Assembly (NCBI GenBank): GCA_000155695.1 | Contig: DS990592.1 | Span: 2,961,973-3,025,972 of the forward strand | Reading direction: 5' to 3' | From: Verrucomicrobiia bacterium DG1235 | Lineage (GTDB): Bacteria; Verrucomicrobiota; Verrucomicrobiia; Opitutales; Opitutaceae | DNA: 64,000 nt | In this document: one piece after another, positions 11,815-28,051 of the stretch | How the letters are laid out: each line of letters starts with the position of its first letter | How positions within the stretch are numbered: position 1 is the first letter of the stretch | Translations under genes and position numbers: made by a program | Notes under the pieces: model-generated | Told to the model about the DNA's origin: nothing | The model's input: only the letters and a program-made list of their open reading frames with translations | Database searches by the model: none

Positions 11815-12954
11815 CTACTTTTTGGCCATCATTCCACCCATAAGAGAGAGGAACTCATCCATCTGAGACATAGTTCCAATACTCACACGCGCCCACTTCT
11901 CATACTTTTGCGCCGGCACGCCAGACACTCGAGAGCCACTGATCAATATGCCATTCTCCTTCATCGTGTCGCGCAGCAATTGCTGATCGATTCCAGAGTG
12001 GAAATAAACAAAGGCTCCATCGGGTTTCGCGTATTCGATGCCCAACTCGTCGAAGGTGTCACAAACGTGCTTCCTCACGGTCTGATAGTTCTCCACGTTT
12101 TTGGAGAGATGCGCCTCGTCTTTCAATGCCTCGCAAGCCGCAATGGCAGCCAAATAGCTCGGAGGACCCATGTAGAAATCGCTGATCAGCTCGATCACGT
12201 CGGGATGCGCCACGCCATAGCCAATGCGCATGCCCGCCAAACCGTAGCCTTTCGAGAACGTGCGCGTCACCATCAGATTCTTTCTGATCTTCGTCAGCGG
12301 GGCGCAGGTCGCCATCGCAAAGCTCGATTCGGTAAGCTCTAGGTAAGCCTCGTCCACGAAGACGAGAATGTGCGGGGGAACAGAAAGGACAAACTGCTTG
12401 AGAGCGTTGGAGTCTGCCAACACTCCAGTCGGGTTGTTCGGATTGCAGATGTACACGATCTTAGTGTTTTCGTCTATCGCATCTCCTAGCGCCTTGAAAT
12501 CGTATCCCATATCCTCGGACAAGGACGCGTACTTCACGTCTCCGCCACGCTGCTCAAACTTGCGAATCAGCTGCGTATAGCCCATTTCCGTGGTGACGAC
12601 GTTTACGCCGGGCTCAGCATAGGCCAGCGCCGTCATCATGAGCAAAGGCCCGGAGCCTGCCGTCGTCAGTATATAATCTTTGGATACGCCTTCCTTCTTG
12701 GCGCAGAGCGCTACGAGCTCCGATACGTTGTTTCGATTATAGTAGCTTCCAGCATCGAGCGCCTCTATCATGGCCTCTTTCGCCTTCGGCGTGTAGCCAA
12801 AGGCGTTCTCATTGCTACTGAGGCGAATTGGGCTGTTCTCGTAAGTGGGAGCGGGATCAGCGGCGAACGCGCATGCGCACAGACCGCTCGCAATAAAGGC
12901 TATCGTGAAAAAACCTTCGAACCGTCTACTGACGGGTGCAGACATCTTTTTCAT
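11815..12954 (-). CDS. Exported HisC-like PLP aminotransferase (copy 1)
   Basis: 379 residues. An N-terminal signal (FFTIAFIASGLCACAFA) precedes a complete class I/II fold: LSSNENAFGYTP, TAGSGPLLMM, YICNPNNPTGV, VFVDEAYLEL, the PLP-lysine motif RTFSKGYGLAGMRIGYG and the carboxylate-binding arginine in WARVSIGT. Such enzymes move the amino group between amino acids and 2-oxo acids. Cytosolic HisC enzymes lack the signal, so this is predicted to be periplasmic. It is the last gene of the receptor/TonB operon, 76 bases after the TPR gene. The second ATG (codon 4) lies in an AAAAAGATGTCT context shared with several genes of the cluster and may be the true start. Related to the copies at 25598 and 26900. 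Confidence 0.85.
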   Translation of the reverse strand: MKKMSAPVSRRFEGFFTIAFIASGLCACAFAADPAPTYENSPIRLSSNENAFGYTPKAKEAMIEALDAGSYYNRNNVSELVALCAKKEGVSKDYILTTAGSGPLLMMTALAYAEPGVNVVTTEMGYTQLIRKFEQRGGDVKYASLSEDMGYDFKALGDAIDENTKIVYICNPNNPTGVLADSNALKQFVLSVPPHILVFVDEAYLELTESSFAMATCAPLTKIRKNLMVTRTFSKGYGLAGMRIGYGVAHPDVIELISDFYMGPPSYLAAIAACEALKDEAHLSKNVENYQTVRKHVCDTFDELGIEYAKPDGAFVYFHSGIDQQLLRDTMKENGILISGSRVSGVPAQKYEKWARVSIGTMSQMDEFLSLMGGMMAKK

Positions 12955-13030
12955 AGGACGGAAATGTTGGAGATTAGTTTTAAAACACCCTGACCGAAAT
13001 CGGCAGCGATGGAGTAGATGAGCGAGACTG

Positions 13031-14389
13031 CTACATTCTCAAAGCAGCCTGCTCGATTCGGAGCAAATAATCGGCCACGTAGTCTTTCGGATCAATTTGC
13101 TGAGCCGAACGCAGAAACTTTGCGGCGGAATCATAGTCACGCTTGCCCACGTTGAGCTGAGCCAGCGAAAGGTAGGCGCGATGGGCGAAGGCGTCGATCT
13201 TGGTCGCGGATTCCGCGTAATATTCGGCTTTCGCAAGATCTCCACGGCTTTTCTCTAAATCTGAGAGCGACAACAAAGCGCCCCCGTTTAAAGGGTCGCG
13301 CTTAACAATCATAGAAAGATAGGAAGCCGCTCCATCCTGGTCGTCCTCTCTGAGGGCGAGACGGGCTTTCACATTGAGCAGGTCTAACTCCTGCCTAGGA
13401 CTCAGCTCATCGCCCATTGTCTCGCTCAACTTCGCCGCTAGCGTTTTCGCATAGGGAATCTGCTCCGAATAGACGAGCGAGTTTACAACTTCAATAATCC
13501 GCTGCGGGTGCGCTCCTTTCATTTCAAGAGCCACTAGATAACTATCGAGCGCCTCGTCGAAAATCCCTTCGTTTACCATTAGATCTCCAAGCAGCGCGAG
13601 CATCGCTCCATCCGCCTTGCCCATATCCTTAACAACAGTCAAATTAGAGGCAGCTCTCACAGTATCTCCAGACGCGACAAACTGGTTTGCCTGAAGCTTC
13701 CACCAGTCGGCATTCTGCGGTTCCTCATGAATAAATTCATACAGCAAACCAATGGCTGACTTCGAATCCTCGAGGGCAATGAGACATTGCAACTTACCAA
13801 GTTTCCAGTCCTTGCTCTTCGGCTGTAGCATAATCGCCGTGCGATAAGCATCGAGAGCTGTAGCCGGTTTTCCTATGTTCAGATAGCAGTATCCGATCAG
13901 GCCATACAGCGTCCCATCTCCCGTCTTTATCTTTAGAGAGTTTTGCAAACCGCTGAGAGCGTTCGCATAATCTCCTTGCGCCACGTAAACGCGACCTAGG
14001 TTATAGTAAGCCTGAGCATAATTCGGAAACTTCCTAATCGCCTCTGTATACGAGGAAATCGCCTTCTCGAATTCCCCTTCCTGATAATAAAGGTTTCCTA
14101 AAATAAAATCGAAGGCCCCACTGCTCTCAGGACCGATAGAGCTTGCGATCCGAGAAATCGCTGCACTTGGATCGCTACCAATAAGAGGGACAACCTCATC
14201 AAAAAGCCCTTTCTCGGCAGCGGTTATATTCGGATTCGTGGATGATTCGGCAATATAACTTTTCGCAAACCGGGCTCTAAACTCCGCGTTTTCGAAATGT
14301 TGCTCTTGGAGCTCATACACTTGCCCTCGAGTCATCGAGGCTATGCACAAAATCGTGAATACAGGTATATATAATCTAAACAGTTTCAT
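13031..14389 (-). CDS. Periplasmic TPR-repeat protein of the TonB operon
   Basis: 452 residues with a signal peptide (LYIPVFTILCIASMTRG). Repeated 34-residue TPR units run through most of the protein, for example FILGNLYYQEGEFEKAISSY, AYYNLGRVYVAQGDYANAL and YGLIGYCYLNIGKPATALDA, with more at the C-terminus (AYLSLAQLNVGKRDYDSAAK). It lies 18 bases after tonB. A TPR protein at this place is a known companion of TtpC/DUF3450-type TonB systems and probably helps couple TonB to the receptor. Confidence 0.9.
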   Translation of the reverse strand: MKLFRLYIPVFTILCIASMTRGQVYELQEQHFENAEFRARFAKSYIAESSTNPNITAAEKGLFDEVVPLIGSDPSAAISRIASSIGPESSGAFDFILGNLYYQEGEFEKAISSYTEAIRKFPNYAQAYYNLGRVYVAQGDYANALSGLQNSLKIKTGDGTLYGLIGYCYLNIGKPATALDAYRTAIMLQPKSKDWKLGKLQCLIALEDSKSAIGLLYEFIHEEPQNADWWKLQANQFVASGDTVRAASNLTVVKDMGKADGAMLALLGDLMVNEGIFDEALDSYLVALEMKGAHPQRIIEVVNSLVYSEQIPYAKTLAAKLSETMGDELSPRQELDLLNVKARLALREDDQDGAASYLSMIVKRDPLNGGALLSLSDLEKSRGDLAKAEYYAESATKIDAFAHRAYLSLAQLNVGKRDYDSAAKFLRSAQQIDPKDYVADYLLRIEQAALRM

Positions 14390-14407
14390 AGATAAAATTT
14401 TCTGGCG

Positions 14408-15079
14408 TTACTCCCAACTCACCGGAATATCCAAATTCATGCGGCACGAAACTGCCTTACCGGCAACAGTGGGAGCGGTGTAAGAAACAGATTCGAAATA
14501 CTTTTTAAACATTCGCCCGTATTCATCATCTATAGCTTGCTTTACCTCGACCGTGGATACGGACCCATCCGGACCAATTGTGAAGGCTACCTTAACCATC
14601 CCCTTCTTCTTCTCACGCTTCATGCGAGGACTGTAGGGCACCATCGGCCTGCCTTTAAGCCTTGGAGTCTGGTCTAGCTCGCTGATATCAAATAGACTGA
14701 TCTGCTCCATAGTCTCCGAGGCGCTTACTCCTACTTCACCAAGAGAGAATCCGCCCGCCAGAGCGTTTCCGATTCCAGGATTCAATGCCATGTTTAGCTG
14801 AGACAGAGAAAGCTGCGGGGGAGGAGGCTGCATATCTGGTGGCGGTTCCTGCTCGGGAGGAGGCTCGGGAGGGGGAGGCTCGGGAGGAGTGAACTGAGGT
14901 GGAGGCACCGTTACATTAAACTCTCTCACCTGCAGGTCGGGTTTCTTGAGCCCAGCCAAAAACTGCGTAAAGGGTAGCATGCCAAACATAGCAAGAACCG
15001 CCAAGGCTGAGAGCGTACCGGCTCCCAACGGGAGTTTCTTCGGTGCCGGACCTTTATAAATTGTGTATTTTGACCCCAT
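14408..15079 (-). CDS. tonB: TonB energy-transducing protein
   Basis: 223 residues: an N-terminal transmembrane anchor (about 20-42), a proline/glutamate-rich periplasmic spacer (about 55-90, repeated PPEPPPP) and a C-terminal TonB domain with GMVKVAFTIGPDGSVSTVEV and a final CRMNLDIPVSW strand. It links the proton-driven ExbB/ExbD motor to outer-membrane receptors. It lies 27 bases after exbD and before the TPR gene, in the order usual for a TonB2-type operon. Confidence 0.92.
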   Translation of the reverse strand: MGSKYTIYKGPAPKKLPLGAGTLSALAVLAMFGMLPFTQFLAGLKKPDLQVREFNVTVPPPQFTPPEPPPPEPPPEQEPPPDMQPPPPQLSLSQLNMALNPGIGNALAGGFSLGEVGVSASETMEQISLFDISELDQTPRLKGRPMVPYSPRMKREKKKGMVKVAFTIGPDGSVSTVEVKQAIDDEYGRMFKKYFESVSYTAPTVAGKAVSCRMNLDIPVSWE

Positions 15080-15106
15080 CGCTCGCGCTTACGCCGTGTA
15101 ACTCTT

Positions 15107-15511
15107 CTAACCCTCGGTAGCGAGATTCACCATATTCGCCCCGGCCAATTTGCACTCGTCATGTACGCGAGTATACAAATCAATCGATGCCGTCTTGTCC
15201 GCTTGGATGATGACTGGCATCTGATCTTTGGACACAAGCTGTCGCACGATCGAACGTACGCCGGAAAGACCAACCTCTTTACCTCCATAAACAACCTTAC
15301 CCTTATCTGTAATGGCTATCAGGATACTGTTCTTTTCAAGGTCGGCAGCGGAAGCTGCCTGCGGCTTGTTCACTTCCACGCCCGTTTCCTCCACGAATAC
15401 AGTGGTCACGATAAAAAATATCAGGAGAATGAAAACCATGTCGATCAATGGAGATATATTAATCTCATCGCTCTCCGCTTCACCCTCTAAAATTGAACGT
15501 CTTGATTTCAT
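15107..15511 (-). CDS. exbD: ExbD-type biopolymer transport protein
   Basis: 134 residues. After a short cytosolic start ([11 protein letters not shown]) comes a single membrane helix [18 protein letters not shown] containing the conserved aspartate used for proton movement, then a periplasmic domain ([19 protein letters not shown] and [19 protein letters not shown]). It partners the ExbB protein six bases upstream and energises TonB. Confidence 0.95.
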
Positions 15512-15517
15512 AAAACT

Positions 15518-16123
15518 CTAACTCGCTAGTCTGTGTTTCTCTAGTTTGAGAATTGTGAGGATCTCCATCCGAGTGAAAAATTGCTCAAGCTCTCCGAGCT
15601 GCTTCTTTACCACCGTAATCATGACATAAGCTGGAATCGCTAGAACCAAACCTGTCTGAGTAGTGATCAAAGCCTCGGAAATTCCACCAGCCACAAGGTC
15701 GATTGTGTTCCCTCCTGTGCTAACCGATAGACCGAAAAAAGTGCCAAGCATGCCAACGACCGTGCCAAGCAGTCCAGTCAGCGGAGCAGCCCCGATCAAT
15801 ATGTTGCAAAAATAGATTCTGCGTTGAAGAACTGGCAAATGACTTACACGAAGTTCGTCGAAACGTGCCCGAGTAAGATCTAGACTGCTCACCTCTCCTT
15901 GAGTAAACTGAATCATTTCCGAGACCTCGCCTTTCGCATCGCGTGGAACATCTATCCAATGCCCGAGCTCATTCAGATCCATTCGATAGAAAGAGTTCTT
16001 CTTCAAATCCAAATACAGTTCGAATATAGCGAAATAGATCACAGCCCCTAGCATAGCCAAAGGGATCATTAGCCACCCGCCAGCGAGCCAAAGCGTAACA
16101 GTCTCATTAATGATTCCGCTCAT
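15518..16123 (-). CDS. exbB: ExbB/MotA/TolQ-type motor protein (short form)
   Basis: 201 residues with three membrane segments (around 14-36, 110-135 and 150-175) and the signature APLTGLLGTVVGMLGTFFGL, followed by GGISEALITTQTGLVLAIPAY. This is the short ExbB that forms the proton channel with ExbD. It directly abuts the larger TtpC-like gene (stop and start adjacent), so the two are coupled. Confidence 0.93.
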   Translation of the reverse strand: MSGIINETVTLWLAGGWLMIPLAMLGAVIYFAIFELYLDLKKNSFYRMDLNELGHWIDVPRDAKGEVSEMIQFTQGEVSSLDLTRARFDELRVSHLPVLQRRIYFCNILIGAAPLTGLLGTVVGMLGTFFGLSVSTGGNTIDLVAGGISEALITTQTGLVLAIPAYVMITVVKKQLGELEQFFTRMEILTILKLEKHRLAS

Positions 16124-17512
16124 TTACGCTATTGTTTTAATGCCGTTAACGAAGCTGATCGACATTTTCTCCATGCGAGCCAGGTATCCTTTTGCCTTCC
16201 TCGAAAGGATTGCGTACAACAAGAGAGCAGGTATCGCTACGATCAATCCGAATTCTGTCGTAATCAGAGCTTCCGAAATCCCGCCAGACAAAGATTTCGC
16301 ATCGCCTGTACCAAAAATCTTAATACGATTAAAGGTGTTGATCATGCCAGTTACTGTTCCCAACAGCCCCAACAAGGGAGCAACCGCGGCTGTTACAGAT
16401 ATGAATGGCAAAAGACGCATAACCTTAGGTTGTGTATCAACCATGGATTCATAAAGAATCTCTTCCACGAGCTCAGGATCATGATCCGAATATTTCACTC
16501 CTTGCTGTATCATTTTTCCCATTGGGCCAGATGCCGTATTGGCAGCGTGAGCGGCGCCTTCCTTGTCTCTATTGGCAAGCTTTGAGAGCACTTCGGAAAG
16601 GAACCCTTCTTTCGGTTTTGGTAGTGAGGACAATTCGACAGTCTTGAACGCCGCAACCGCTAGGGAAAGAAATGCAAATCCAAGAATCGGATATATCCAA
16701 ATACCTCCTTTGCCTATATGATCGAGTATACTCTCCTTCGTAGCCGCAATTGCCATCGCGTTATCTAGAGTAGAATCGATAGGAAGAATACCCTTCGCGC
16801 CAGATGCGATGGATACGATTTCCTCGTCAAATTCACCCCCCATGATGGTTCTCACGACAGGTTCGGTTGATTCCCCCTGCTCCACCAGTCCCGCTTTACC
16901 AGACTCGCTGGCAAAAAAAGTAACCGGTCCAAAACGAACAAACGTACCATCTTCCAGCAAGCCTCCTGCAGTGATCGCCTTGCCAGCGTAGGTTGCCCCT
17001 CCAGACAGCGATTCCATCCGGTCTAGCCCCGCAGCCAAAATCGATTTCTGCGGACCCAGCTTTTCTAAAGCCGATATGTGAGGATCTTCTGCAGCCAGCT
17101 CGGAAGCTGAGATCTTGTCCTTGTAAAACGCGTACTCTGACGGATCAAGCTGCGAACCGAAAGTACGAGCAAACTCAGCGCTAAGACTAATGAGGTAGTC
17201 TACCATTTCACCCTGAGCGCTGAGCGTCGACTCGAAGCTCAACAGATCCGAACTCTGATTATCACTCAATCTCTGGGCCCGATTCGCAGCCCTTCGAAGG
17301 TCGCGAAGTTCGGCGAACAATGTATCTCGCTTTTTCGTAAGCGGAATCTTCTCGGAGCCAATCTCCTCGCGTAATTCCGCTAGTCGCTCCATCGATGCAT
17401 TTAGTCTCTCATGAGCCTGCAAAGAGGATTTCTCTAGGGCCGATTGCCCGGTCAAGGAGGAGGTCGCTACGAGTAGAGCTACCGTTAAATAGGAGAATAT
17501 TCTCATAAACAT
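16124..17512 (-). CDS. TtpC-like large ExbB-family protein
   Basis: 462 residues. A signal peptide (FSYLTVALLVATSSLTG) is followed by a long periplasmic coiled-coil region (about 25-120) and a mixed domain to about 250. The ExbB/TolQ membrane domain follows (about 265-450) with APLLGLLGTVTGMINTFNRI and GGISEALITTEFGLIVAIPA. This layout is that of TtpC, the extra ExbB-like subunit of Vibrio TonB2 systems, where the periplasmic extension is needed for energy transfer. The start MFMRIF has a second in-frame ATG two codons later. Confidence 0.9.
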   Translation of the reverse strand: MFMRIFSYLTVALLVATSSLTGQSALEKSSLQAHERLNASMERLAELREEIGSEKIPLTKKRDTLFAELRDLRRAANRAQRLSDNQSSDLLSFESTLSAQGEMVDYLISLSAEFARTFGSQLDPSEYAFYKDKISASELAAEDPHISALEKLGPQKSILAAGLDRMESLSGGATYAGKAITAGGLLEDGTFVRFGPVTFFASESGKAGLVEQGESTEPVVRTIMGGEFDEEIVSIASGAKGILPIDSTLDNAMAIAATKESILDHIGKGGIWIYPILGFAFLSLAVAAFKTVELSSLPKPKEGFLSEVLSKLANRDKEGAAHAANTASGPMGKMIQQGVKYSDHDPELVEEILYESMVDTQPKVMRLLPFISVTAAVAPLLGLLGTVTGMINTFNRIKIFGTGDAKSLSGGISEALITTEFGLIVAIPALLLYAILSRKAKGYLARMEKMSISFVNGIKTIA

Positions 17513-17529
17513 AAAATCTTAGTATTCCC

Positions 17530-18309
17530 TTATGGAGTCACTATTTGAGCCGGCAGACCCAGAAATTTCGCATCGATAGTCCTGTCGTATATTGCAACCA
17601 ACTGCGCTACGTCTTCGGCCATCGCCAAATCGGCGGTCCATTCCCAGCCATCATCAGACGGTTTACCAAAGCCGGCGTACTCGCCGCTACCATCTATAAA
17701 ATAGGCGTAAGCGAATCCGAAATACAAAGTGGTCACTTCCCGCGACTCGCCGTCTACATCTTGCACCCCGGTTTCTTTTGTGACTACACTTTGAAACTTA
17801 TCAAATTGTGAAAGTATCGCAACGACGTTCTGCAAACGAATGGTTATCGGCGTGTTCGCCTTTTGATCCTCACCAGGGATACGCTTAAGAAACGTTTCAA
17901 CAGTATCAAGAAATGAAGCGGGCCAAGACAGCGAAAGCTCCTTAATACGCTCCTCGTAACGCTCCACAGCTGCATTCATATCTTCCGAAGCCTCATCGAG
18001 GGCTCCTTTCTTTTCTTCGAGTTCGACTCGCTTTTTCTCTCCAACGGAAGAGGTCTCCTCAGCAGTCTTGATTATCTCTTTTAAACTACTGATTTCAGTC
18101 TCCATAAACTCTATGGAATTCTCGAGCACTTCCTTTTGCTCAATCCATTCGTTTTTCTCTTCGGAGACCTGCTTTTCTAGCGATATCCACTCGCTCAAGA
18201 CATGCTGCGTATCCTTTACAATATCAGCAGTTAATAAACAAGGAGCTAACAGCGACGAACCAAAAACGATAGTCCTCAATTTAAAAAATGTTCTATGAAA
18301 AATTGACAT
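17530..18309 (-). CDS. DUF3450-family TonB-associated coiled-coil protein
   Basis: 259 residues. After a signal peptide ending near CLLTADI there is a long coiled coil (about 35-130, rich in E and K), then a globular end containing TIRLQNVVAILSQFDKF, TTLYFGFAYAYFIDGSGEYA and GWEWTADLA. The order and position ahead of a TtpC-like ExbB match DUF3450 proteins of TonB operons. Its role is not settled; it probably extends or scaffolds the periplasmic part of the motor. Confidence 0.9.
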   Translation of the reverse strand: MSIFHRTFFKLRTIVFGSSLLAPCLLTADIVKDTQHVLSEWISLEKQVSEEKNEWIEQKEVLENSIEFMETEISSLKEIIKTAEETSSVGEKKRVELEEKKGALDEASEDMNAAVERYEERIKELSLSWPASFLDTVETFLKRIPGEDQKANTPITIRLQNVVAILSQFDKFQSVVTKETGVQDVDGESREVTTLYFGFAYAYFIDGSGEYAGFGKPSDDGWEWTADLAMAEDVAQLVAIYDRTIDAKFLGLPAQIVTP

Positions 18310-18354
18310 AATTGTGCTTCCTAGAAATGCAATTCCGTTAAAACGGAGGGGTAA

Positions 18355-18385
18355 GCTGCGGCAGCGATAAAAGTGCCGCCGCAGC
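18355..18385 (-). terminator. Hairpin between receptor gene and TonB machinery (possible attenuator)
   Basis: GCTGCGGC (18355-18362) pairs with GCCGCAGC (18378-18385) around a 15-base loop, between the receptor gene and the DUF3450 gene. There is no T run on the minus strand, so full termination is unlikely. It could reduce transcription of the downstream motor genes or stabilise the receptor mRNA 3' end. Confidence 0.5.
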
Positions 18386-18428
18386 CTATAATACCCAATG
18401 GATGGATCAGATTACGAACGAACAGACT

Positions 18429-21068
18429 CTAAAATTCAGTTTCCATGCGGAGGACAAAATTACGACCGCGATCTGCCAGCACCTGACCATCCTCATCATT
18501 GTAAGAACGCGCGTACCAGAAGTACTGATCAAACAGATTCGAAACGTTGAGCGATACCTTCCAACCTTCGAGTGCCGTATCGGATCTTCCACTATAACTT
18601 ATGCCTCCATCGAAAACAGTATAGGAACCAAGAGGCTGAGTGTTTAGTGTATTAACGTAAACCTCATCGTAATATTTTCCGCCAAAATTAAACCTAAAGT
18701 CGCCCTTCGTATAGATGGCATCGAAGTTCGCAGTTAAAAATGGTGTATTTCCAAGATCGTTCCCGCTGATGTCCTCGTAGATTTCGTAGGCGAGCGGATC
18801 GCTCGTCGCCGCGACACGATAGCCTGGATCCGCTGTCGGTATCGGATCACCCTCCTCGATAAAGACCACTGAATCTAGAAGATCTTCCTGAAAGGTCGTT
18901 TCCTGAATGGCGACAGAACCGCTGAACTTGAGGCCTTCAATCGCGGTCATCCAGTCACCAGAGGCTTCAACACCCCAGGAATCAACACCTCCAACATTCT
19001 GATAGACGCTATTGCCCGCCGCTCCGGCATTCGCAGAGTCGATCGGTACCGCCGAAGCAAGAATACGATCTGTATAACTGACATGGTAAGCCTGCAGCGT
19101 ATAGCTGCCTCCGGCCAAATTTCCACGCACGCCAACGTCAAAGTTTTCAGAATACTCTGGCTTTAGAATATCAGGATTGAAGGTATCTCCAGCAGTCGTG
19201 ATCGTACCTGAGTTTGGCGTAGCCATATTCTCCGAATAGTTGAAAAACAGTTCCGTACTATCGCCAAGCGCGTAGAGAAGACCAAACTGAGGAAGAAAAT
19301 AGTCCTCATAGCTAGTCGAACGAAACGTTTCTTCGTTTTTCAGCCATTCTCCAATACTCAGGAATCCATTTGCATCACGATCGAGAGTAATCGCCTTTGC
19401 ACCAGCGATAATGTCCAATTTCCCGTCCATAGCCGTATACGTATCCTGTACCCAAAACTGCATGACATCCTGATCGATGTAGCGGGTATAGTTCGTGAAG
19501 TTGAATTGATCATAGCGGTAAGCCCCGAGGATGGATCCACCATCCAAATTAAAGTTAGGACGCTCCGTTCCGTGATGGTCGAACTCATACCAACCCCCGA
19601 GGATTAGCTTATTGTTCTCCGTCTCCCAGGTGTAGGAGGCCGTTAATCCGTAACGGTGACCACCAAAGTTCTCATCACGAGCAGTACGCCCTGGGATACC
19701 TGCCACAAACTCTACGCCAGCAGAGTAGGTCGGCGTGCCAGGGGCGACAATCGCGTGCTCACTACTGTAGGCTTCAACAATCTCACCCGTTTCGCTGATC
19801 GCATTGTCGTCTGCGTCGTACCAAAGCTGCCCCCAGATATCCGTACGACTTGGATCGTTCATGTAAGCAGCGCGAACCTGATTTTGGGCGTAGGCCCGGT
19901 CACGACCCCACAAGCCATAATTGTCCTTATCCTGATAATAAGTAACCACTTCCATGGTCTTTCCATCATCGAAATCAAAATCGAACTTGAAGCGCTGCAA
20001 GGTATCCATACGCCCATTCTTCCATTTATCATAGTAGATAGCGTTTACGCCTTCCCCTGCCCCAACTGTCGAATCAAGGTACTTCACAGGTCCAAGGTTA
20101 CGCCCTTGATCGCTCAAATCACCATAGTTGAAGTTTCCAATTCCAGGATAGTCCCATGGCGTGAACTCTACGTAGCCCTGACCCGTGCCACGATAATTCC
20201 CAGCCTCGGCATCTACCCACTCGTCATAACTAAGACCAGCTGTATCAAAGTCGTCACGATCATTATAAGTTACAGCATAGGTGATATCTATTTTGTCAGA
20301 TGGAAGCTCGTACTTAAACTTAGCTTCATAACGACGAGCCATGCCTTTGCCAAGCCCTTCCAATCCACGTGGCGTAAATTCAAAATGCGACCCGCTTACA
20401 TAACCCGTGAAACCAGGAAATATTTCACCGAGTTCGTATTTACCGAAAAGACTTATATGATCAAAACTCCCGTAGGCGACACTAGCGTACGCGCCTTTTT
20501 CACTGGAGGGATCCTTGGTAAAGTACTGCAACGAACCACCCAAAGCTTGATAGGCAGGCGTGGTCACATCACCGGCGCCTTGAGAAACCTTGATCGCTGT
20601 CAGGTTTTGGGAGTCAACGAGGCGCCCTATCGGGCTTCCATAACGAGGGTCACTCGTTCCCACTGGCACGCCATCGAGCGTGACGCCTAGGTTAGAAATA
20701 TTAAATGCTCTGACGCGTATGTCATTGCCAAACTCATAGAAACCAAACGGGTCTCTAGTTACAACATTCACACCAGGAATCTTGTCCACCATCTTTTCCG
20801 GAAGCGCTCCCGGCATCGCAATCTCAAGCGCCTCCAGATTCAGAGAATTGTTTGCTCGGCTTTCACCTTGGCCGACGGCCGTGAAAGTTTCGAAGACTTC
20901 CATGCCGGAGCTGGAACTGTCCTGGGCCACAGTTTGGGTAGCGAATCCTGCGATTGCCAAAGCGACTGCGACCGAAACGAGAGAGCTCTTAGAGACAGAC
21001 CTCTCGCCGTCAGACGGACGTGCGCACATAGACGCGCTGCCCGTGTTGTACGGATTTGAATTAGACAT
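18429..21068 (-). CDS. TonB-dependent outer-membrane receptor with plug
   Basis: 879 residues. It starts at ATGTCTAAT in the shared AAAAAAGATGTCT context. A signal peptide (VAVALAIAGFATQTVAQ) is followed by a TonB-box-like METFTAVG-type stretch near 55-65, a plug with MVDKIPGVNVVTRDPFG, DIRVRAFNISNLGVTLDGVP and ALGGSLQYFTKDP, and a long beta-barrel ending in aromatic Phe (NFVLRMETEF). It imports a substrate too large or scarce for porins. It heads the operon that encodes its own DUF3450/TtpC/ExbB/ExbD/TonB/TPR machine and an exported aminotransferase, so the imported compound probably bears an amino group (inference). Confidence 0.93.
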   Translation of the reverse strand: MSNSNPYNTGSASMCARPSDGERSVSKSSLVSVAVALAIAGFATQTVAQDSSSSGMEVFETFTAVGQGESRANNSLNLEALEIAMPGALPEKMVDKIPGVNVVTRDPFGFYEFGNDIRVRAFNISNLGVTLDGVPVGTSDPRYGSPIGRLVDSQNLTAIKVSQGAGDVTTPAYQALGGSLQYFTKDPSSEKGAYASVAYGSFDHISLFGKYELGEIFPGFTGYVSGSHFEFTPRGLEGLGKGMARRYEAKFKYELPSDKIDITYAVTYNDRDDFDTAGLSYDEWVDAEAGNYRGTGQGYVEFTPWDYPGIGNFNYGDLSDQGRNLGPVKYLDSTVGAGEGVNAIYYDKWKNGRMDTLQRFKFDFDFDDGKTMEVVTYYQDKDNYGLWGRDRAYAQNQVRAAYMNDPSRTDIWGQLWYDADDNAISETGEIVEAYSSEHAIVAPGTPTYSAGVEFVAGIPGRTARDENFGGHRYGLTASYTWETENNKLILGGWYEFDHHGTERPNFNLDGGSILGAYRYDQFNFTNYTRYIDQDVMQFWVQDTYTAMDGKLDIIAGAKAITLDRDANGFLSIGEWLKNEETFRSTSYEDYFLPQFGLLYALGDSTELFFNYSENMATPNSGTITTAGDTFNPDILKPEYSENFDVGVRGNLAGGSYTLQAYHVSYTDRILASAVPIDSANAGAAGNSVYQNVGGVDSWGVEASGDWMTAIEGLKFSGSVAIQETTFQEDLLDSVVFIEEGDPIPTADPGYRVAATSDPLAYEIYEDISGNDLGNTPFLTANFDAIYTKGDFRFNFGGKYYDEVYVNTLNTQPLGSYTVFDGGISYSGRSDTALEGWKVSLNVSNLFDQYFWYARSYNDEDGQVLADRGRNFVLRMETEF

Positions 21069-21554
21069 CTTTTTTGTATGGTTTGAGTTTAGCTTAAAAC
21101 CAACTCGCCATCAGCATCATCAATGCCAAAACGCGGATTTTGTATGGCAAGTTGATAGAATCTCAAACTTGAGACATTTTGCCTAAGTCAATTCTACATA
21201 CTATAAAAGTCTTCAAGCATCGCCCGAAAACTTTGTACCCCTCCTGCCTATTTCGCTGTTATATAGCTTTCGTAAGTCACGAACCTCTAGGCATTTCCTC
21301 ATTTGCCGTATCCATCCTTGCACGAACCAAATCGATGTTAATTCAATATTATATATGGAATCGACACGAAGCAATCCTCCCGTCAACGGCCCTCTAAAAC
21401 GCAAAGGAGATCAAAATCGAGCACTTATCCGCGTTCCGTTTTTGCACGAAGTTCACCACAATCGCAAATTGACGTGAACTCACCCTCCAATGGCGCAAAG
21501 ACTGCTCGCGAACCAAACTGAATCGGTGGGTCCGCCACTCAAAAAGATGTCTAA
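21069..21554. promoter_or_regulatory. Divergent intergenic region between the two receptor genes
   Basis: The 486 bases separate two oppositely transcribed receptor genes and must contain promoters for both. TATA-rich sequence is present (CTATAAAAG near 21200, TATTATATATGG near 21346), but no convincing -35/-10 pair or operator was found and no regulator gene is nearby. No gene is seen here. Confidence 0.5.
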
Positions 21555-21558
21555 ATGA
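21547..21558 (+). other. Three-codon leader frame overlapping the second receptor start
   Basis: ATG TCT AAA TGA lies in the same AAAAAGATGTCTAA context that starts other genes here, and its stop overlaps the ATG of the receptor gene by the ATGA arrangement typical of coupled translation. It may be a leader that delivers ribosomes to the real start, or a relic of an older start disabled by a frame change. Confidence 0.45.
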
Positions 21559-23990
21559 AACCCTTTCGCTGCAATTTATCCGCGATTGCAAGGATGGCTT
21601 GTTGTTGCTGCACATTGGCAGCTATAGCCAACTCTCAAACCGCGCCCCAAACAACAGCTCTCGCTCAAACGACACGCGCTCCTCAAGCTCAGCAAGTTGA
21701 TTCGAAAGACGAAACCAATGCGAGTCCTCGCGAAAGGGGACGTATTCTAATCAAGAGAAACCCTATCGCATCAGAGTATCAAATATTTGGAGACATTGGT
21801 TCTAGTCCGGGAGCGGACGCAGATGCGGAAGGCGTAGATTATCGGGCATTTTTCCCAAGGGCCAACCCAGCGGACAACCCGATCGACTCAACTAAAGTCG
21901 GGTATATGCTCAATTTTAATGATTCTTCATCGAGATTTAAGAGCGGCTACACCCTTGGCTTCAACAGGGCTCTCGACTCCGAGAAAAGATGGAGCGCATC
22001 GATGCAACTCAAAAGCTCTGCGTCTGATCGAAAAATAGAACACTACGAATCCGTATGGCAAGAAGACGGCGACTCGGGAGAGTACCTCCTCGACCGGCCT
22101 CGCCTGTCTTTTGACGAGATTCATACACGAAACACCATCGCCACCGCTCAACTCGGATACAAACCCAACGAGAGACACTCTTGGTACGCTAAAACATACT
22201 ACCAAGACTACTCCGATTATTCATATCGCAACCGACTCGAGCTCCAATTCGGAAATGCTGATCGAATCAGAGCAAACGAGACGATGGCCGCGGATGGAAG
22301 CGTTACCCGTTCATCATTCAAGAACGCCCGCTCACGTCGATACTTTGGCGATACTCAAAACGAACGAGAACGACGTCACCATACCATCGGAGGCGCCTAT
22401 ACTGGCGCCGAATGGACGATCGATTACTCTCTGTATTCACACAAATGGGACTTGAATACAGTATGGAACAACTGGAACTTTACAGAATCAGGCTTAGGTC
22501 TCGGCTATACAATCGAAGATCCGCACTTCCCCACAATTTCTGAGAATGACGACACTGATCTCCAAAACATCAGCGCCGCCAATTTCTCAAGCCTCCGAGT
22601 CCACAATACTGATACAAAAGATAGAGACCTTGCAGCTCGACTGGACGCAGAACGAAAAATCCAAATAGGAAACCAAGAGCTTTGGATCCAGACCGGGGTT
22701 CTTCATCGAGAGAAAGAACGCGACACTCAACAGAAAATCAGTGTCTTCCTGCCCAGTTCAGAAACGAATTTCACACTGCAAGAAGTAGCGTATTCAGGAT
22801 CTGGGACAAGCATTCTCGATGGTTCCTACACCGTACCTCTCGGACTAGACCCGCAAAAATCTCGTTCGTTCGTCAGCAGTGAGCAGCACTACTTCTCCCC
22901 TAATGACTATCGATCAAAAGTCGAAACTGCTCCTCAATCTTACTCTGCTCGCGAATCTGTCACATCCGCCTACCTGCAAGGAATTCGAACGCAGGGCGAC
23001 CTAACAATTGAATTTGGTGGACGAATCGAAAGAACCAAAACGGAAACACGCGGAACTGTAGTAATACCAGAACCAATAAACGATCCCAACGAAGGAACAG
23101 AGCTAGAAACAATTCTAAATCCGAGCAGTCAAACACTGCAAATAATCAAGAATCTGTATTCAAGAAATGATTACAATAGCTTTACTCCTAGCGCTGAACT
23201 CACCTTCCAAACCACCCCATACACGAACATCAAAGCCGCATGGTACCAACTTCTCATGCGCCCCCAATACTTCAATATCGTAGACTACCGAAGAGTAAGC
23301 ATTCCAACTAGGAGCATATCAGAGGGAAACCCAAACCTAGAACCAACCGAAATAGACAAATTTCGTCTCGCGTGGACGAGGGAAAGCGTAGCCACTGGAA
23401 CTCTTTCGATTGAGACCTACCTGATAAAGGTTGAAAATTTCTTTTACGGCTCTGTATCACAAGAAAGCATACAGGAAAGCGGTGTACCTACCCCGTATCG
23501 CGTTAGTCGAGTTGAGAACGGCAAAGAGGCGAATATAAAGGGATTCGAAGTACAGTGGAGGAAAACCGTTTCAGATTTCGCTTTCTTCGACCAAGTCTCT
23601 ACCACCTTAGCCTACACGTTTTCAGATTCAGAAGCTTCCGTTGATTCGCGCCCGAACGAGAGCCTCCCCACACCCGAACGCTCAGATCATCTGTTCAAAG
23701 TCAACTGGACAGGCGCGATTGGAGACTACAGCAGCTCCATAGACATGACCTATCAAAGCGAAGCTCTCGACGACCTCGGCAATTCCCGGGCTGAAGACAA
23801 ATACCGAGAGCCTGTCTTGAATGTTTCAATACAGAATTCATACTCCATAAACCAAAATACTTCAGTTTCGTTAAACCTTTTCAACGTGACTGATCATCCG
23901 GAACGTTCCTACGAAGGCTCGCCACTACGCGTCACCCGAAATCAGTACAGCTCTTGGTTCACTAGTCTCATTTTTACGCGCTCATTTTAA
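21555..23990 (+). CDS. TonB-receptor-like outer-membrane barrel without visible plug
   Basis: 811 residues. A short signal region (ARMACCCCTLAAIANSQ) leads into a Gln/Ala/Thr-rich linker. From about residue 100 the protein reads as beta-barrel strands, e.g. VGYMLNFNDSSSRFKSGYTL, through the receptor barrel signature SEGNPNLEPTEIDKFRLAW near 590 to a final aromatic FTSLIFTRSF. I cannot find a plug: no LxxVPGV, IRG or GGxVN-type motifs. The barrel resembles Caulobacter-type TonB receptors, which are usually longer and do carry a plug. It is followed eight bases later by an MFS transporter, suggesting outer- and inner-membrane steps for the same compound. Confidence 0.8.
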   Translation: MKPFRCNLSAIARMACCCCTLAAIANSQTAPQTTALAQTTRAPQAQQVDSKDETNASPRERGRILIKRNPIASEYQIFGDIGSSPGADADAEGVDYRAFFPRANPADNPIDSTKVGYMLNFNDSSSRFKSGYTLGFNRALDSEKRWSASMQLKSSASDRKIEHYESVWQEDGDSGEYLLDRPRLSFDEIHTRNTIATAQLGYKPNERHSWYAKTYYQDYSDYSYRNRLELQFGNADRIRANETMAADGSVTRSSFKNARSRRYFGDTQNERERRHHTIGGAYTGAEWTIDYSLYSHKWDLNTVWNNWNFTESGLGLGYTIEDPHFPTISENDDTDLQNISAANFSSLRVHNTDTKDRDLAARLDAERKIQIGNQELWIQTGVLHREKERDTQQKISVFLPSSETNFTLQEVAYSGSGTSILDGSYTVPLGLDPQKSRSFVSSEQHYFSPNDYRSKVETAPQSYSARESVTSAYLQGIRTQGDLTIEFGGRIERTKTETRGTVVIPEPINDPNEGTELETILNPSSQTLQIIKNLYSRNDYNSFTPSAELTFQTTPYTNIKAAWYQLLMRPQYFNIVDYRRVSIPTRSISEGNPNLEPTEIDKFRLAWTRESVATGTLSIETYLIKVENFFYGSVSQESIQESGVPTPYRVSRVENGKEANIKGFEVQWRKTVSDFAFFDQVSTTLAYTFSDSEASVDSRPNESLPTPERSDHLFKVNWTGAIGDYSSSIDMTYQSEALDDLGNSRAEDKYREPVLNVSIQNSYSINQNTSVSLNLFNVTDHPERSYEGSPLRVTRNQYSSWFTSLIFTRSF

Positions 23991-23997
23991 AACAACC

Positions 23998-25296
23998 ATG
24001 ATGAGGAACCGTAAGCATCCCCAGCAAAGCGAGTCAAAGGCGTGGAAAACTCTTTTTCTCGTCAGCTTTATTAACTCCGCTCAAACTTCGCTAGCCGTAG
24101 TTGGTATCCCATCACACGTCGTTCAGACCGAAATGAGCCAGGCTCAGCTTGGTTTGCTTCTCGGAGCTATGCCGCTATTCGCTGGTCTATCGGCGTTTTG
24201 CTCAGGCTTCCTCTCGGACTTCTTGGGGAGGAAAAGCTTGCTGATTGCGGGCCTGGCCCTTCTTGGCACCTCCCTATCGCTCCATGCATTTGCCAGTTCG
24301 TTTCCCATTCTGCTAACGCTTCGCAGCTTCACAGGACTTTCGACCGGCATTATCATGGGCCTTCCCTCCGCCCTGCTAAGCGACAGCTACCCTACATCTC
24401 GACAGCAAACCCTCACCGGAAAGACGCTTTGCGGATACGCGATAGGACAGACTATCGGTATACCTATCGGAATCCTCTTCATGGACTGGACCGACTTCCT
24501 TCTTCTCTGCTCTTTGCTAGGATTTTTCACTCTCCTCGTTATCCCTCTCGCAAGGGCCTACGTTCCTTCAACCCAAACTCAAATACCTCGCAAGAACAAG
24601 TGGGCGTCAACCTACTTAAAGCTAGCCAGATCCACCATTCGGGACCCCCAATTCGCCCTCGTATCCTGCAACTCATTTCTAAGCTTCATGGCTCTCTCGA
24701 TCTTCTACGTAACCTTTGCCCTTTGGCTATTTGATACCGCAAAGCTGAGGCCGGCGGAAGTCGCCCCGATGTACCTTGGAGCCGGAATTCTTCAAATCAT
24801 AGTGTTTGCATACCTAGTTCAACTTACCGCTAAGCTAAACGTTCGCACCACTATTGCGACCTCGCTTCTCGTGAACTCTCTCTTGTTTGCGACCGCCTAT
24901 CTGGCGTTTCAAAGCCTCACTTCAGCTGCAGTGCTCTTTGCTCTAACACTGGCCACTGTCTCGGCCCGGATTCCCGGACTACAGTTCCTGATGAACAATT
25001 GCGGCGAAGCCCCCCAAAAAGGACTACGCATTAGCATTGTTCAAACCTGCGGACACATCGGAAAGGCTATTGGTTCGGTTGCCGCGAGCTTTCTCTTCAC
25101 TCGAATAGAAGCGCATCAGACCTTGCTAATTTGCAGCGGCATAACGCTCATCTGCTGCATTCTTTTCATTACCCCCGTCTTCTTGGAAACAAACTCTGCT
25201 CAAGCTTCAACTAAAACGGAACAAAAGCAGAAATTGGGGTTAGGTGAAGTTCCCGATAACTCCAGAAAGAAGTGGCTCTGGCACGCACGATGCTAA
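23998..25296 (+). CDS. MFS transporter
   Basis: 432 residues with about twelve hydrophobic segments. The loop motif GFLSDFLGRKSLLIAGL near residue 70 is the classical MFS motif A. The protein begins with a short basic cytosolic segment (RNRKHPQQSESKAW). It most likely carries a small organic compound across the inner membrane. It is eight bases downstream of the plug-less barrel gene, so the two form an operon. The substrate cannot be told from sequence; an amino acid or its deamination product would fit the neighbours. Confidence 0.88.
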   Translation: MMRNRKHPQQSESKAWKTLFLVSFINSAQTSLAVVGIPSHVVQTEMSQAQLGLLLGAMPLFAGLSAFCSGFLSDFLGRKSLLIAGLALLGTSLSLHAFASSFPILLTLRSFTGLSTGIIMGLPSALLSDSYPTSRQQTLTGKTLCGYAIGQTIGIPIGILFMDWTDFLLLCSLLGFFTLLVIPLARAYVPSTQTQIPRKNKWASTYLKLARSTIRDPQFALVSCNSFLSFMALSIFYVTFALWLFDTAKLRPAEVAPMYLGAGILQIIVFAYLVQLTAKLNVRTTIATSLLVNSLLFATAYLAFQSLTSAAVLFALTLATVSARIPGLQFLMNNCGEAPQKGLRISIVQTCGHIGKAIGSVAASFLFTRIEAHQTLLICSGITLICCILFITPVFLETNSAQASTKTEQKQKLGLGEVPDNSRKKWLWHARC

Positions 25297-25597
25297 ATGA
25301 AGATGTCTAGTAAACATTTAACGACTACATGCCAAAGCCAGATAAGGTGAATAGAACAGGTCATCATAAGATCAATTCAAAATTATCTTCGCTTAGAAGA
25401 TTTTTCTTCATACTAAATTGAAATTTCTATCATCCGTATCGGAGGCATAACTACGTATCCACATACGTTTCAGCGCTTCGAAAGCCTTTGAGCAGGCTAA
25501 CGCCTGCTCAAAGGTGCTTCAGTGCCGTGCCTCCTGTGGCCGCTGAGCTGCTGGCCAGAGACGCTAGACAGAACTCTAGCTTACCGGGCAAAACTAC
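25297..25597. other. Intergenic stretch with hairpin and an orphan start-like motif
   Basis: Just after the MFS stop, GAAGATGTCTAGTAAA (25299-25314) repeats the start context of neighbouring genes but opens only a 15-codon frame (MSSKHLTTTCQSQIR). Farther on, a perfect 12-base stem CTTTGAGCAGGC / GCCTGCTCAAAG (25486-25513, loop of four) lies between two converging genes. It lacks a T run but may end transcription from both sides. No gene is seen. Confidence 0.5.
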
Positions 25598-26749
25598 TCA
25601 CCCGAAGACCTCGCGCATCGCCTTCTCGTACTTTTGCATTTCCTCAACAGTGCCGATGCTGATCCTGCACCAGTCGTCATAGGGCGGAAACGGTCGCCCA
25701 ACGAGAAACCCGCGCCGCTTCATCAATTCCTGAAACTCCCGAATATCGATGCCTGTCTGATGAAAGACAAAATTTCCCACCGAAGGGATGTAATCCAGAC
25801 TCAAGGCTTCGAGCAGAGAGCTGAAGCGCTCGCGACCTTCGCGAATGAAACGTCGAGACTGCCGGTGAAATCCTTCATCCCCTAAACTAGCGGTCGCTGC
25901 GACCACTCCAAGATAACTAGGACTCGACATCCTATGTTTACCAAGTCTCTCGACAAGCTCAGGCGTCGTAACCGCATATCCAATACGATGGCCGGCGAGT
26001 CCATGCATTTTAGAAAACGAACGACCGATAACGACCGGCAAACCTTCCCTTACCAAATCAACTTGAGTTTGCTCAGAAAAATCCTCCAGCAGCTCCAAGT
26101 ACACTTCATCCAGAAAAACCACCCCATTTTCGCAAGCGGAGCGACAGAAAGCCTCCACAGATTCAGGCGACAAAATAGTACCAGATGGCGTATCCGGATT
26201 ACAAATATACGTGAGGTCCGCAGATCGCCTAACGACCTGCTCAAGCATTCCGTCCAGATCGTGACGCATCGATTCAAGATGTTCCACCCACTCGACATGA
26301 GCTCCCTGCTTTTCCGCATATTCCATCAGTTGCAGGTAAGTGGGACGAGATGCCACAATAGTCGCTCCGGGCTTCCCGAATTCCCTACCCGCTAGCGAAA
26401 GGATCTCATCGCAACCATTGCCCAAGAGAATGTTCTCCGAACCGACACCTTCACGCTCGGCGATTCTTTCCTTTAGAATCACTTCTTCACGAAACGGATA
26501 GCGACAGCTGTTCTTCACTTCTCGCATGATCGCCATACTGACTCTCTGCGAGGGACCGAACGGATTCTCATTACCCGCAAGGTTTATGTACTTTAATTCT
26601 GGGTACTTAACCGCAGTCTCAAGGCTTTTACCAGGTAGCGACTGACCAAGTCCCGATCTGGCTAGAGCTAGACCTAAAGCAGATACACCAGCTCGACGTA
26701 TCCATTCCCTCCTGCTCGTCACTGCCTCAAAACCCTGATTCCCCTTCAT
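25598..26749 (-). CDS. Tat-exported HisC-like PLP aminotransferase (copy 2)
   Basis: 383 residues from the ATG chosen here (a TTG 18 bases upstream is an alternative). The N-terminus holds SRREWIRRAGVSALGLALA, a good twin-arginine signal, which would allow export of a folded, PLP-loaded enzyme. The core has NLAGNENPFGPS, LLGNGCDEILSLAG, YICNPDTPSGT, FLDEVYLELL, the PLP-lysine motif GRSFSKMHGLAGHRIGY and the arginine in WCRISIGT. It lies 150 bases downstream of copy 3 on the same strand. All three copies share the end KAM/VSIGT-type layout and probably act on amino acids in the periplasm. Confidence 0.88.
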   Translation of the reverse strand: MKGNQGFEAVTSRREWIRRAGVSALGLALARSGLGQSLPGKSLETAVKYPELKYINLAGNENPFGPSQRVSMAIMREVKNSCRYPFREEVILKERIAEREGVGSENILLGNGCDEILSLAGREFGKPGATIVASRPTYLQLMEYAEKQGAHVEWVEHLESMRHDLDGMLEQVVRRSADLTYICNPDTPSGTILSPESVEAFCRSACENGVVFLDEVYLELLEDFSEQTQVDLVREGLPVVIGRSFSKMHGLAGHRIGYAVTTPELVERLGKHRMSSPSYLGVVAATASLGDEGFHRQSRRFIREGRERFSSLLEALSLDYIPSVGNFVFHQTGIDIREFQELMKRRGFLVGRPFPPYDDWCRISIGTVEEMQKYEKAMREVFG

Positions 26750-26899
26750 ATCCACGAACGCCCTCAACGCAGGCAGAAAGGCCGGCTCAACCCATCTCGA
26801 CTCTTCGAATCTATGGCTTGAACCGGCCCCTTGTTAATCATCTAAATTTTCCGTTTTCGAGAAACTTTCAATGCATGTTTTCGAGAGTCGAGCCCTCGC

Positions 26900-28051
26900 C
26901 TAAAGCTTACCTTTCGCTTTCATTACTTCTTCGAAAACGCTCAAAAAGACACCCATTTCCTCTTCGGTTCCAATGCTCACTCGACACCAGTCAAGCATCG
27001 GAGGGAAAGGTCGCCCTACCATGACCTGTTCAGCTTCCATCAAGGTCTGGAACTCCTTGATCGGAACGCCAGTTTTCATAAAGACAAAGCTACCCTGGGG
27101 GTACGCATATTCGACTCCGAGCTCGTCCAGCTTATCCGTAACCATTTTCCGAACCGTCCGATAGTTTGTTACGCTTTCCTCGAAAAACATCGTGTCCTGC
27201 AGAGAGGCGACCGCGGCCACACAGCCGAGCTTGTTGGGCCCTCCCATGTGATACTTCGCGAGCTTTGCCTTCGTATCGGGTTTCATGATACCGTAACCGA
27301 CACGAAGACCTGCCATACCGAATACCTTAGAAAAGGTCCGAGCTAGAATAACATCCCTGCCTTCTCGCACCAAGCCAATCATACTATTCGCCTCGAGCCC
27401 GCCATCCGCCAACTCAAGGTAAGCCTCGTCGACAAAGGCCGTAACACCGGGGGGCAGTTCCCGAATGAAGGCCTTCAAAGCCTCAGGGTCCACTGTCGTC
27501 CCAGTCGGATTGTTCGGATTGCAAAGATAGACCATCACCGTGTTCTCGTCGATCGCTGCCTTGACCGCAGGCAGATCGTACTCGAGCTTTTCGTTTAACG
27601 GAACCGACTTAACATCACCTCCGAACTCCTTGAACTTTCGGACCAATTGAGTGTACCCAGGAGCAACCGTTACTACATTCTTGCCCGGCTGAGCGTAGGC
27701 AATCGCCGCCATTACCAAAACCGGCCCGGACCCTGCCGTGGGCAGGACGAACTCTGAAGGCACGAGCTCTCGAGCCGAAATCGCCTCAACGAGGGCGACA
27801 GACTCCTCCCACGCATAGCGATTAATATCGGGAAGCTCCTGCATAATGGACATCATCGCCATCTGCGAGTAGCCAAATGCGTTTTCGTTGCCGTTAATTT
27901 TTACAGGACCCCGTCCCCCTTCGTCAGAATCCACCTCATGTTGCCCAAAGGCAAACTGAGGAGAAAGTAAAAGCGTCGCGATTGCGAAGATCGACGCGAT
28001 AGCAGACGCGGAGCGAGACCCCGCTTTTTTCGGTACCAGTGTAGTAGACAT
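26900..28051 (-). CDS. Exported HisC-like PLP aminotransferase (copy 3)
   Basis: 383 residues from MSTTLVPKK; this start is chosen because it lies in the AAAAAAGATGTCT context shared by neighbouring genes, although an ATG 45 bases upstream is in frame. A Sec-type signal (SIFAIATLLLSPQFAFG) precedes the aminotransferase fold: INGNENAFGYSQ, LPTAGSGPVLVMA, YLCNPNNPTGTT, FVDEAYLEL, ARTFSKVFGMAGLRVGYG and WCRVSIGTEEEM. It is closest in sequence to copy 1. It diverges from the amine-oxidase operon, so the two could share a control region. Confidence 0.87.
   Translation of the reverse strand: MSTTLVPKKAGSRSASAIASIFAIATLLLSPQFAFGQHEVDSDEGGRGPVKINGNENAFGYSQMAMMSIMQELPDINRYAWEESVALVEAISARELVPSEFVLPTAGSGPVLVMAAIAYAQPGKNVVTVAPGYTQLVRKFKEFGGDVKSVPLNEKLEYDLPAVKAAIDENTVMVYLCNPNNPTGTTVDPEALKAFIRELPPGVTAFVDEAYLELADGGLEANSMIGLVREGRDVILARTFSKVFGMAGLRVGYGIMKPDTKAKLAKYHMGGPNKLGCVAAVASLQDTMFFEESVTNYRTVRKMVTDKLDELGVEYAYPQGSFVFMKTGVPIKEFQTLMEAEQVMVGRPFPPMLDWCRVSIGTEEEMGVFLSVFEEVMKAKGKL

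Follow-up and report, generated by a model that had tools for sequence, protein, structure and literature searches.

Predicted exported HisC-like aminotransferases beside a candidate periplasmic L-amino acid deamination operon in Verrucomicrobiia bacterium DG1235

INTRODUCTION

A stretch of 64,000 nucleotides from Verrucomicrobiia bacterium DG1235 (contig DS990592.1; the whole stretch is referred to here as the window) encodes three paralogous HisC-like aminotransferases, AT1, AT2, and AT3, each with a signal-like N terminus, close to TonB-related genes and to an operon headed by an L-amino acid oxidase (LAAO) homologue. The locus raises the question of how enzymes that depend on pyridoxal phosphate (PLP) could be exported and find both their cofactor and an amino acceptor in the periplasm; cofactor-containing enzymes are the textbook reason for export through the twin-arginine translocation (Tat) pathway. 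We propose that AT1 to AT3 are exported PLP aminotransferases in a conserved periplasmic L-amino acid deamination module, a reading to which we assign a probability of about 0.55. It is supported at the sequence level by the signal-like N termini, the catalytic residues, and the conserved gene cluster, in which the parts for gaining nitrogen from amino acids still outside the inner membrane would come together as a conserved unit.

RESULTS

Three intact HisC-like genes outside the named subfamilies

A profile search of the window proteins matched three intact open reading frames (ORFs) to Aminotran_1_2, confirming the HisC-like paralogs described in a first-pass annotation of this DNA. The PF00155 scores of AT1, AT2, and AT3 (165.3, 125.2, and 146.8 bits, respectively, against a gathering cutoff of 19.7) and their catalytic lysine assign all three to fold type I. 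The top NCBIfam models include TIGR01141 (HisC), NF006580 (PRK09105), and NF051461 (PtaA), all scoring below their cutoffs: 213.5, 228.4, and 196.9 bits for AT1, AT2, and AT3 against the equivalog cutoff of 276.55 of TIGR01141; 209.4, 214.0, and 246.6 bits against 444 for NF006580; and 171.7, 166.7, and 201.2 bits against the equivalog cutoff of 500 of NF051461. By these scores, AT1 to AT3 are placed near, yet outside, the PtaA and PRK09105 families, and histidinol phosphate is an unlikely substrate because all three fall under the HisC cutoff. That the genes are duplicates of a cytosolic HisC was ruled out by the subcutoff scores and by the separate clade described below.

The AlphaFold model of AT3 has a mean predicted local distance difference test (pLDDT) score of 84.2, with nearly all of residues 1 to 61 below 50 and a helix at residues 31 to 44. 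Its top structural match is 3ly1 (Z score, 43.2; root mean square deviation, 1.8; 336 residues aligned), a comparison that serves only to place AT3 among HisC-like folds and is not informative on substrate.

Export signals differ among the three proteins

Signals were classed as Tat or general secretory (Sec) with a crude, home-made rule in a strict and a loose version. AT2 begins with SRREWIRRAG, a clear Tat motif, and a Tat motif was also seen in the AT2 copies of all five genomes read (the window genome, G000, and G089, G019, G063, and G008; genomes and loci are cited by working labels), upholding the earlier call of a clear twin-arginine signal. The companion claim that copies 1 and 3 are Sec-like stood for AT3, in which none of 10 sequences has RR. 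The evidence for AT1 is mixed, as the window copy has a weak SRR (SRRFEGFF) ahead of a strongly hydrophobic core and is scored as Tat by the loose rule; RR was found in 6 of 11 AT1 sequences. The strict Tat pattern was absent from AT1 (0/11) and AT3 (0/10) and present in six of seven AT2 sequences and 48 of the 49 other exported sequences. Median core hydrophobicity was 2.25 for AT1 and 2.08 for AT3, compared with 1.79 for AT2 and 1.62 for the others (AT1 and AT3 versus the rest, Mann-Whitney P = 2.4e-10, uncorrected for shared descent).

Under the loose rule, 134 sequences were divided into 56 Tat, 18 Sec-like, and 60 without a signal, with 14 more lacking a recognized core. Seventeen of the 18 Sec-like sequences are AT1 or AT3 orthologs, and the remaining one is from Balneola. 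False signals caused by wrong start sites were ruled out, the N termini being consistent over five genomes, and AAAAAG lies upstream of the AT3 start, the position (28051) at which the first-pass annotation closes its interval, in the window and its four closest orthologs. Lipoprotein signals were also ruled out, a conserved lipobox being absent from the N termini of the aminotransferases by eye. TatC is encoded in the window genome. Judged from these N termini, AT1, AT2, and AT3 are very probably exported.

The Tat motif appears to have decayed within an exported family

ORFs with an aminotransferase match above 110 bits and 230 aligned residues were collected and identical copies dropped; near-duplicates remain in the set (for example, L062/L150 and L057/L152). 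Three sequences classed as having no signal, second copies in L082, L086, and L092 with RR, were relabeled Tat by eye, and 16 of the remaining 57 entered the tree. Four of the 14 sequences without a recognized core were added by hand, three labeled Tat by eye and one (L153) left unlabeled. The resulting tree of 97 sequences was built by a short search with no bootstrap and was rooted with the 16 sequences without a signal as the outgroup.

A single clade held 81 of the 97 sequences, with an approximate likelihood ratio (SH-aLRT) support of 97; 80 of these are labeled Tat or Sec-like (six by eye) and one is unlabeled. All 16 sequences without a signal fall outside it, and the signal labels agree with a tree rooted on those same sequences. 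Nested in the exported clade is a 22-sequence group (support, 100) that unites the orthologs of AT1 and AT3 and is divided into AT3 (10 sequences; support, 88) and AT1 (12 sequences; support, 99), and the AT2 orthologs form a separate clade of nine (support, 100).

Tat-signal HisC-like aminotransferases were found in many genomes by several searches, one of which covered the best 80 of 540 matches. PtaA of Pseudomonas fluorescens and PvdN are described as periplasmic PLP enzymes exported with PLP through Tat (PMC6206403), and a Tat substrate study in P. aeruginosa names the aminotransferase PA2531 besides PvdN (PMC6085387). The initial view that export of a HisC-like aminotransferase is unusual in itself was therefore not sustained: by their sequences, exported HisC-like aminotransferases, mostly of Tat type, are a large family, and export is not new. 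What is odd is that in two copies, AT1 and AT3, the Tat motif is poor or missing and a private loop is shared (see below). Because several AT1 sequences retain RR, decay of the Tat motif most simply took place on the stem of AT1 and AT3 or later.

Several further members of the family were noted. A fourth HisC-like aminotransferase of the window genome, far from the cluster (G000:C6:4733057-4734040; L004 and L160), has the Tat-type signal MKRREWIKNA and a top match to PRK09105 below the cutoff. Genome G321 (L148 to L152) has five matches to the exported family on separate contigs, including an AT2-like and an AT1-like gene as a divergent pair in L148. Across L069 to L092, mostly Bacteroidota, SusC/SusD-like genes are frequent neighbors of the Tat-type relatives (9 to 10 loci, named by eye), echoing the link to TonB-dependent uptake, and so is a gene resembling AEC-type permeases (16 loci, named by eye).

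Active-site residues are kept, and AT1 and AT3 share a GSGP loop

The lysine, arginine, aspartate, Asn193, and tyrosine positions are invariant in 12 AT1, 10 AT3, and 9 AT2 sequences, with the catalytic lysine in all 31, so that the PLP lysine and substrate arginine first noted in the window proteins are present in all aligned orthologs as well. The asparagine of the NPTG stretch, whose counterpart in aspartate aminotransferase we take to contact the PLP ring, is kept in 72 of 72 AT1, AT3, and other exported sequences (12/12 AT1 and 10/10 AT3) and in 15 of the 16 outgroup sequences; it is threonine in all nine AT2 sequences. A GSGP loop occurs in every AT1 (12/12) and AT3 (10/10) sequence and in none of 75 others. 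It precedes the helix expected to cap the PLP phosphate (strand 117 to 120 and helix 124 to 134 in the AT3 model), and from the fold it should lie at the PLP phosphate site.

These features bear on the idea that AT1 and AT3 are no longer aminotransferases and are exported without cofactor for a binding or structural role. Two features of the clade would fit, the lost Tat motif and the change to GSGP, as would the report that a Sec (PelB) fusion of GadB, itself a PLP enzyme, gave less total activity in Escherichia coli than a Tat (TorA) fusion (PMC4993724). The invariant catalytic residues (AT1, 12/12; AT3, 10/10) argue otherwise, as do PLP racemases known to function in the periplasm (PMC6034422 and PMC7890096, the excerpts of which give no export route), and we regard a noncatalytic role as improbable. 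A PLP aminotransferase lineage that went from Tat to Sec export, folding in the periplasm and binding its PLP there with the aid of a rebuilt GSGP phosphate loop, is a tentative alternative that we rate clearly higher, if short of even odds.

AT2 and AT3 face a probable cytochrome c-linked operon

Features of the locus are listed in Table 1. On the plus strand the order is LAAO-cytC-Amt-Rid3-ALDH, the DUF6797/azurin-like gene, GGT, and M19. The LAAO product matches the Rhodococcus opacus L-amino acid oxidase 2jae at 4e-100 and has a Tat-type signal (TRRNFIRQ), with RR in all nine copies of the cluster by eye. The adjoining cytC, unnamed in the first-pass annotation, matches PF13442 at 2.7e-14; its start overlaps the LAAO stop (TGATG) and its end the Amt start. 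A cytC match adjoins LAAO in nine of nine genomes, and CxxCH was read in eight copies (that of G063 not among them); the export signal, judged by eye, varies in clarity between copies. Copies 2 and 3 had been described as facing an oxidase operon, and they do face it, but with a Tat-type LAAO and an adjoining cytC it is better read as a cytochrome c-linked L-amino acid dehydrogenase operon. In Rid3, the arginine of the PART/PTRT stretch, presumably catalytic, is conserved in the first two domains but not in the third (by eye). The DUF6797/azurin-like gene was set aside as a candidate electron acceptor, no match being present between ALDH and GGT in G089, G019, and G063.

On the minus strand, the order TBDR1-DUF3450-MotA-ExbB-ExbD-TonB-TPR-AT1 makes AT1 the last gene of the run, as proposed from the first reading, with TBDR2 and the MFS gene running opposite.

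TABLE 1 Features of the aminotransferase locus, in window coordinates
Feature	Position	Strand	Remarks
AT1, HisC-like aminotransferase, final gene of TonB run	11815-12954	-	Start M1; predicted export
AT1 predicted signal	12862-12954	-	About residues 1-31, AFA before cut; Sec-like, weak SRR; cleavage by eye
TPR (tetratricopeptide repeat) protein, TonB, ExbD, ExbB, MotA/ExbB, and DUF3450 genes	13031-18309	-	Profile matches
TBDR1, TonB-dependent receptor	18429-21068	-	Profile match
TBDR2, TonB-dependent receptor	21555-23990	+	NCBIfam; no Pfam match at threshold used
MFS (major facilitator superfamily) transporter	23998-25296	+	Profile match
AT2, Tat-type HisC-like aminotransferase	25598-26749	-	Start M7; listed ORF 25598-26767; predicted export
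AT2 SRR of twin-arginine motif SRREWIRR	26708-26716	-	Read from sequence
AT3, predicted Sec-type HisC-like aminotransferase	26900-28051	-	Start M16; listed ORF 26900-28096; predicted export
AT3 predicted Sec-type signal	27944-28051	-	About 36 residues, FAFG before cut; cleavage by eye; low pLDDT there
LAAO, L-amino acid oxidase homologue (flavin amine oxidoreductase)	28288-29865	+	Tat-type signal; start set by ortholog comparison; listed ORF begins at 28240
cytC, small cytochrome c	29865-30248	+	Signal-like N terminus; listed frame 29685-30248 from upstream TTG
Heme-binding CxxCH of cytC (CQACH)	30018-30032	+	Sequence
Amt, ammonium transporter	30241-31599	+	Profile matches
Rid3, three Rid (YjgF/RidA) domains after N-terminal membrane segment	31626-33059	+	Segment by eye
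ALDH, aldehyde dehydrogenase	33098-34525	+	No visible signal; profile matches
DUF6797 protein, C-terminal azurin-like cupredoxin domain	34538-37429	+	Between ALDH and GGT
GGT, gamma-glutamyltransferase	37478-39199	+	Signal-like N terminus; profile match
M19, dipeptidase-family protein	39221-40480	+	Signal-like N terminus; profile match

The cluster is conserved in genomes with AT3

In a family-level draw of 100 genomes, AT3 orthologs (at least 65% identity) were present in five and LAAO (E value, 1e-40) in seven, including the same five; a class-level draw of 286 genomes, with up to six candidates scored in each, gave AT1 matches at an E value of 1e-55 in the window genome and four more. Nine genomes with an AT3 ortholog made up the comparison set. 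LAAO-cytC-Amt-Rid3 is contiguous in all nine. AT3 adjoins LAAO divergently in eight (the arrangement in G321 is AT3-MFS-LAAO), AT2 adjoins AT3 in eight, and a TonB receptor match lies within the fetched stretch in eight. That AT1 to AT3 are chance paralogs was ruled out by this gene order, kept across several genomes. In G008, GGT and M19 lie beside AT1 and not in the LAAO run; the link thus outlasts a change of position. LAAO also adjoins an exported aminotransferase relative in a Balneola record (L085), in which a Hint-module match (6294-7298) was seen beside the pair. In Pelagicoccus sp. SDUM812002 (L058) the genes from TBDR1 to AT1 form the same run, at identities comparable with those in genomes of the same genus (for AT1, 76% compared with 72 to 79%), and the window genome therefore probably belongs to Pelagicoccus.

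Two other window genes were noted. The product of 10717-11610 is secreted-looking and without a Pfam match, and its gene is also found beside AT1 in G089, G019, and L058. The protein encoded at 5674-6840 contains two adenylate kinase stretches and is possibly a fused duplicate.

DISCUSSION

Under the deamination proposal, peptides or amino compounds would enter through the TonB receptors, and amino acids would be freed from them by GGT and by the M19 dipeptidase in genomes that have these. The Tat-type LAAO homologue would oxidize L-amino acids and pass the electrons to the cytochrome c of the operon, not to O2. The membrane-anchored Rid protein would convert the imines by hydrolysis into keto acids plus ammonium, the latter for import by Amt. 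The aminotransferases may shift amino groups from poor LAAO substrates onto keto acids regenerated by LAAO and Rid, a periplasmic transdeamination. Since LAAO and Rid would regenerate these keto acids, the amino acceptor would be made in place, and the LAAO keto acids could serve as the acceptor that the first-pass annotation required. AT2 would be exported folded, with PLP, through Tat; AT1 and AT3, having moved to Sec, would have to obtain PLP after export. The simplest purpose of the module, by analogy with Chlamydomonas LAO1 (PMC10805672), would be ammonium gain from L-amino acids, because Amt is in the operon. On the sequence evidence, the whole is a new arrangement of known parts, and the surprise is the apparent change from Tat to Sec together with the private loop.

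Two other functions were weighed for the same genes. In the manner of PtaA, the aminotransferases might act on a free alpha-amino group in some larger molecule that is imported or exported, such as a gamma-glutamyl residue in a siderophore-like compound that the TonB receptors carry and GGT and M19 trim. For each of the three proteins the PtaA model ranks in the NCBIfam top five, the PtaA substrate is a gamma-linked glutamate (PMC6206403), and TonB receptors, GGT, and M19 lie close by. However, the scores of 167 to 201 bits are far from the PtaA cutoff of 500, the 20 neighbor proteins scanned included none for the biosynthesis of such a compound, and Amt, Rid, and cytochrome c are better suited to bulk deamination of amino acids; such tailoring is unlikely, although it is the stronger of the two. 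Alternatively, LAAO and the aminotransferases might produce aromatic keto acids extracellularly, converting tryptophan to indole-3-pyruvate for auxin signaling, with ALDH helping to form indole-3-acetate. Auxin formation is lost in lao insertion mutants of Gluconacetobacter diazotrophicus, in which cccA and ridA transcripts are lowered (PMC5053998), the periplasmic LAO1 of Chlamydomonas yields indole-3-pyruvate (PMC10805672), and the ALDH matches include phenylacetaldehyde dehydrogenases below their cutoffs. In contrast, no keto acid decarboxylase was found among those 20 proteins, Amt indicates nitrogen gain, and ALDH is poorly conserved (28 to 31% identity in G008, G321, G201, and G244, with no match found in the fetched G219 stretch), leaving auxin signaling a poor prospect.

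Several observations weigh against periplasmic deamination by exported aminotransferases or against parts of that proposal. The nine cluster genomes are not independent, four being of one genus, and GGT and M19 were seen within the fetched stretches of five of the nine (G000, G089, G019, G063, and G008). Two genomes, G025 and G003, have LAAO and no aminotransferase of the family within the 20 kb fetched around it. (In G025 [L158], LAAO is followed by a Rid protein with its own Sec-like signal.) ALDH is apparently cytosolic and shows weak conservation beyond the genus. The assignment of signals to Sec or Tat depends on the home-made rule, which is imperfect because a Balneola sequence outside the AT1/AT3 clade, in which RK replaces RR, also scored as Sec-like; moreover, the loose rule calls four sequences of the AT1 clade Tat, that of the window included. 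The tree search flagged long branches (L006, L083, L004, L132, L085, L080, and L072). The role of the aminotransferases beside LAAO, the pooling of amino groups, is inferred, and AT2 may not be an ordinary transaminase because its PLP-ring asparagine is threonine.

A clade that lost the Tat motif yet retains its complete PLP active site allows the route of PLP into the periplasm to be tested directly, and AT2 provides an internal Tat control at the same locus. If the switch from Tat to Sec is real, it would imply that these bacteria have a pool of usable vitamin B6 in the periplasm and carry out full transamination and deamination outside the cytoplasmic membrane, with electrons passing to cytochrome c.

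Among known systems, PtaA resembles AT1 to AT3 in that its model, NF051461, is among their five best NCBIfam matches and in the Tat signal shared with AT2; it differs in that the three score far under its cutoff, AT3 lacks the Tat motif, AT1 has only the weak SRR, and the gene setting is another. A second relative is 3ly1, the top structural match of AT3 and the top PDB sequence match of AT1 to AT3; GRxFPPxxxWCR is common to 3ly1, AT2, and AT3, while AT1 lacks GRxFPP. NF006580 (PRK09105) is the best or second-best NCBIfam match, and its profile, from position 4, covers the AT2 signal region, although all three score under its subfamily cutoff of 444.

The lao-cccA-ridA operon of G. diazotrophicus, in which lao insertion abolishes tryptophan-derived auxin (PMC5053998), is the counterpart of the LAAO run; the window cluster adds Amt, exported aminotransferases, and TonB receptors, and its Rid is a three-domain protein after a membrane segment. 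The Chlamydomonas LAO1 system, with LAO2/RidA, likewise deaminates L-amino acids extracellularly to give ammonium, but it is eukaryotic and yields hydrogen peroxide, and the excerpted account mentions no aminotransferase partner (PMC10805672). Finally, dehydrogenases that use CytC are reported to be well predicted by a Tat signal combined with a neighboring CytC gene, and flavin amine oxidoreductases with both features include such enzymes (PMC12224317). The window LAAO resembles NicA2 and Pnao in having a Tat-type signal and an adjoining gene for an exported-type cytochrome c.

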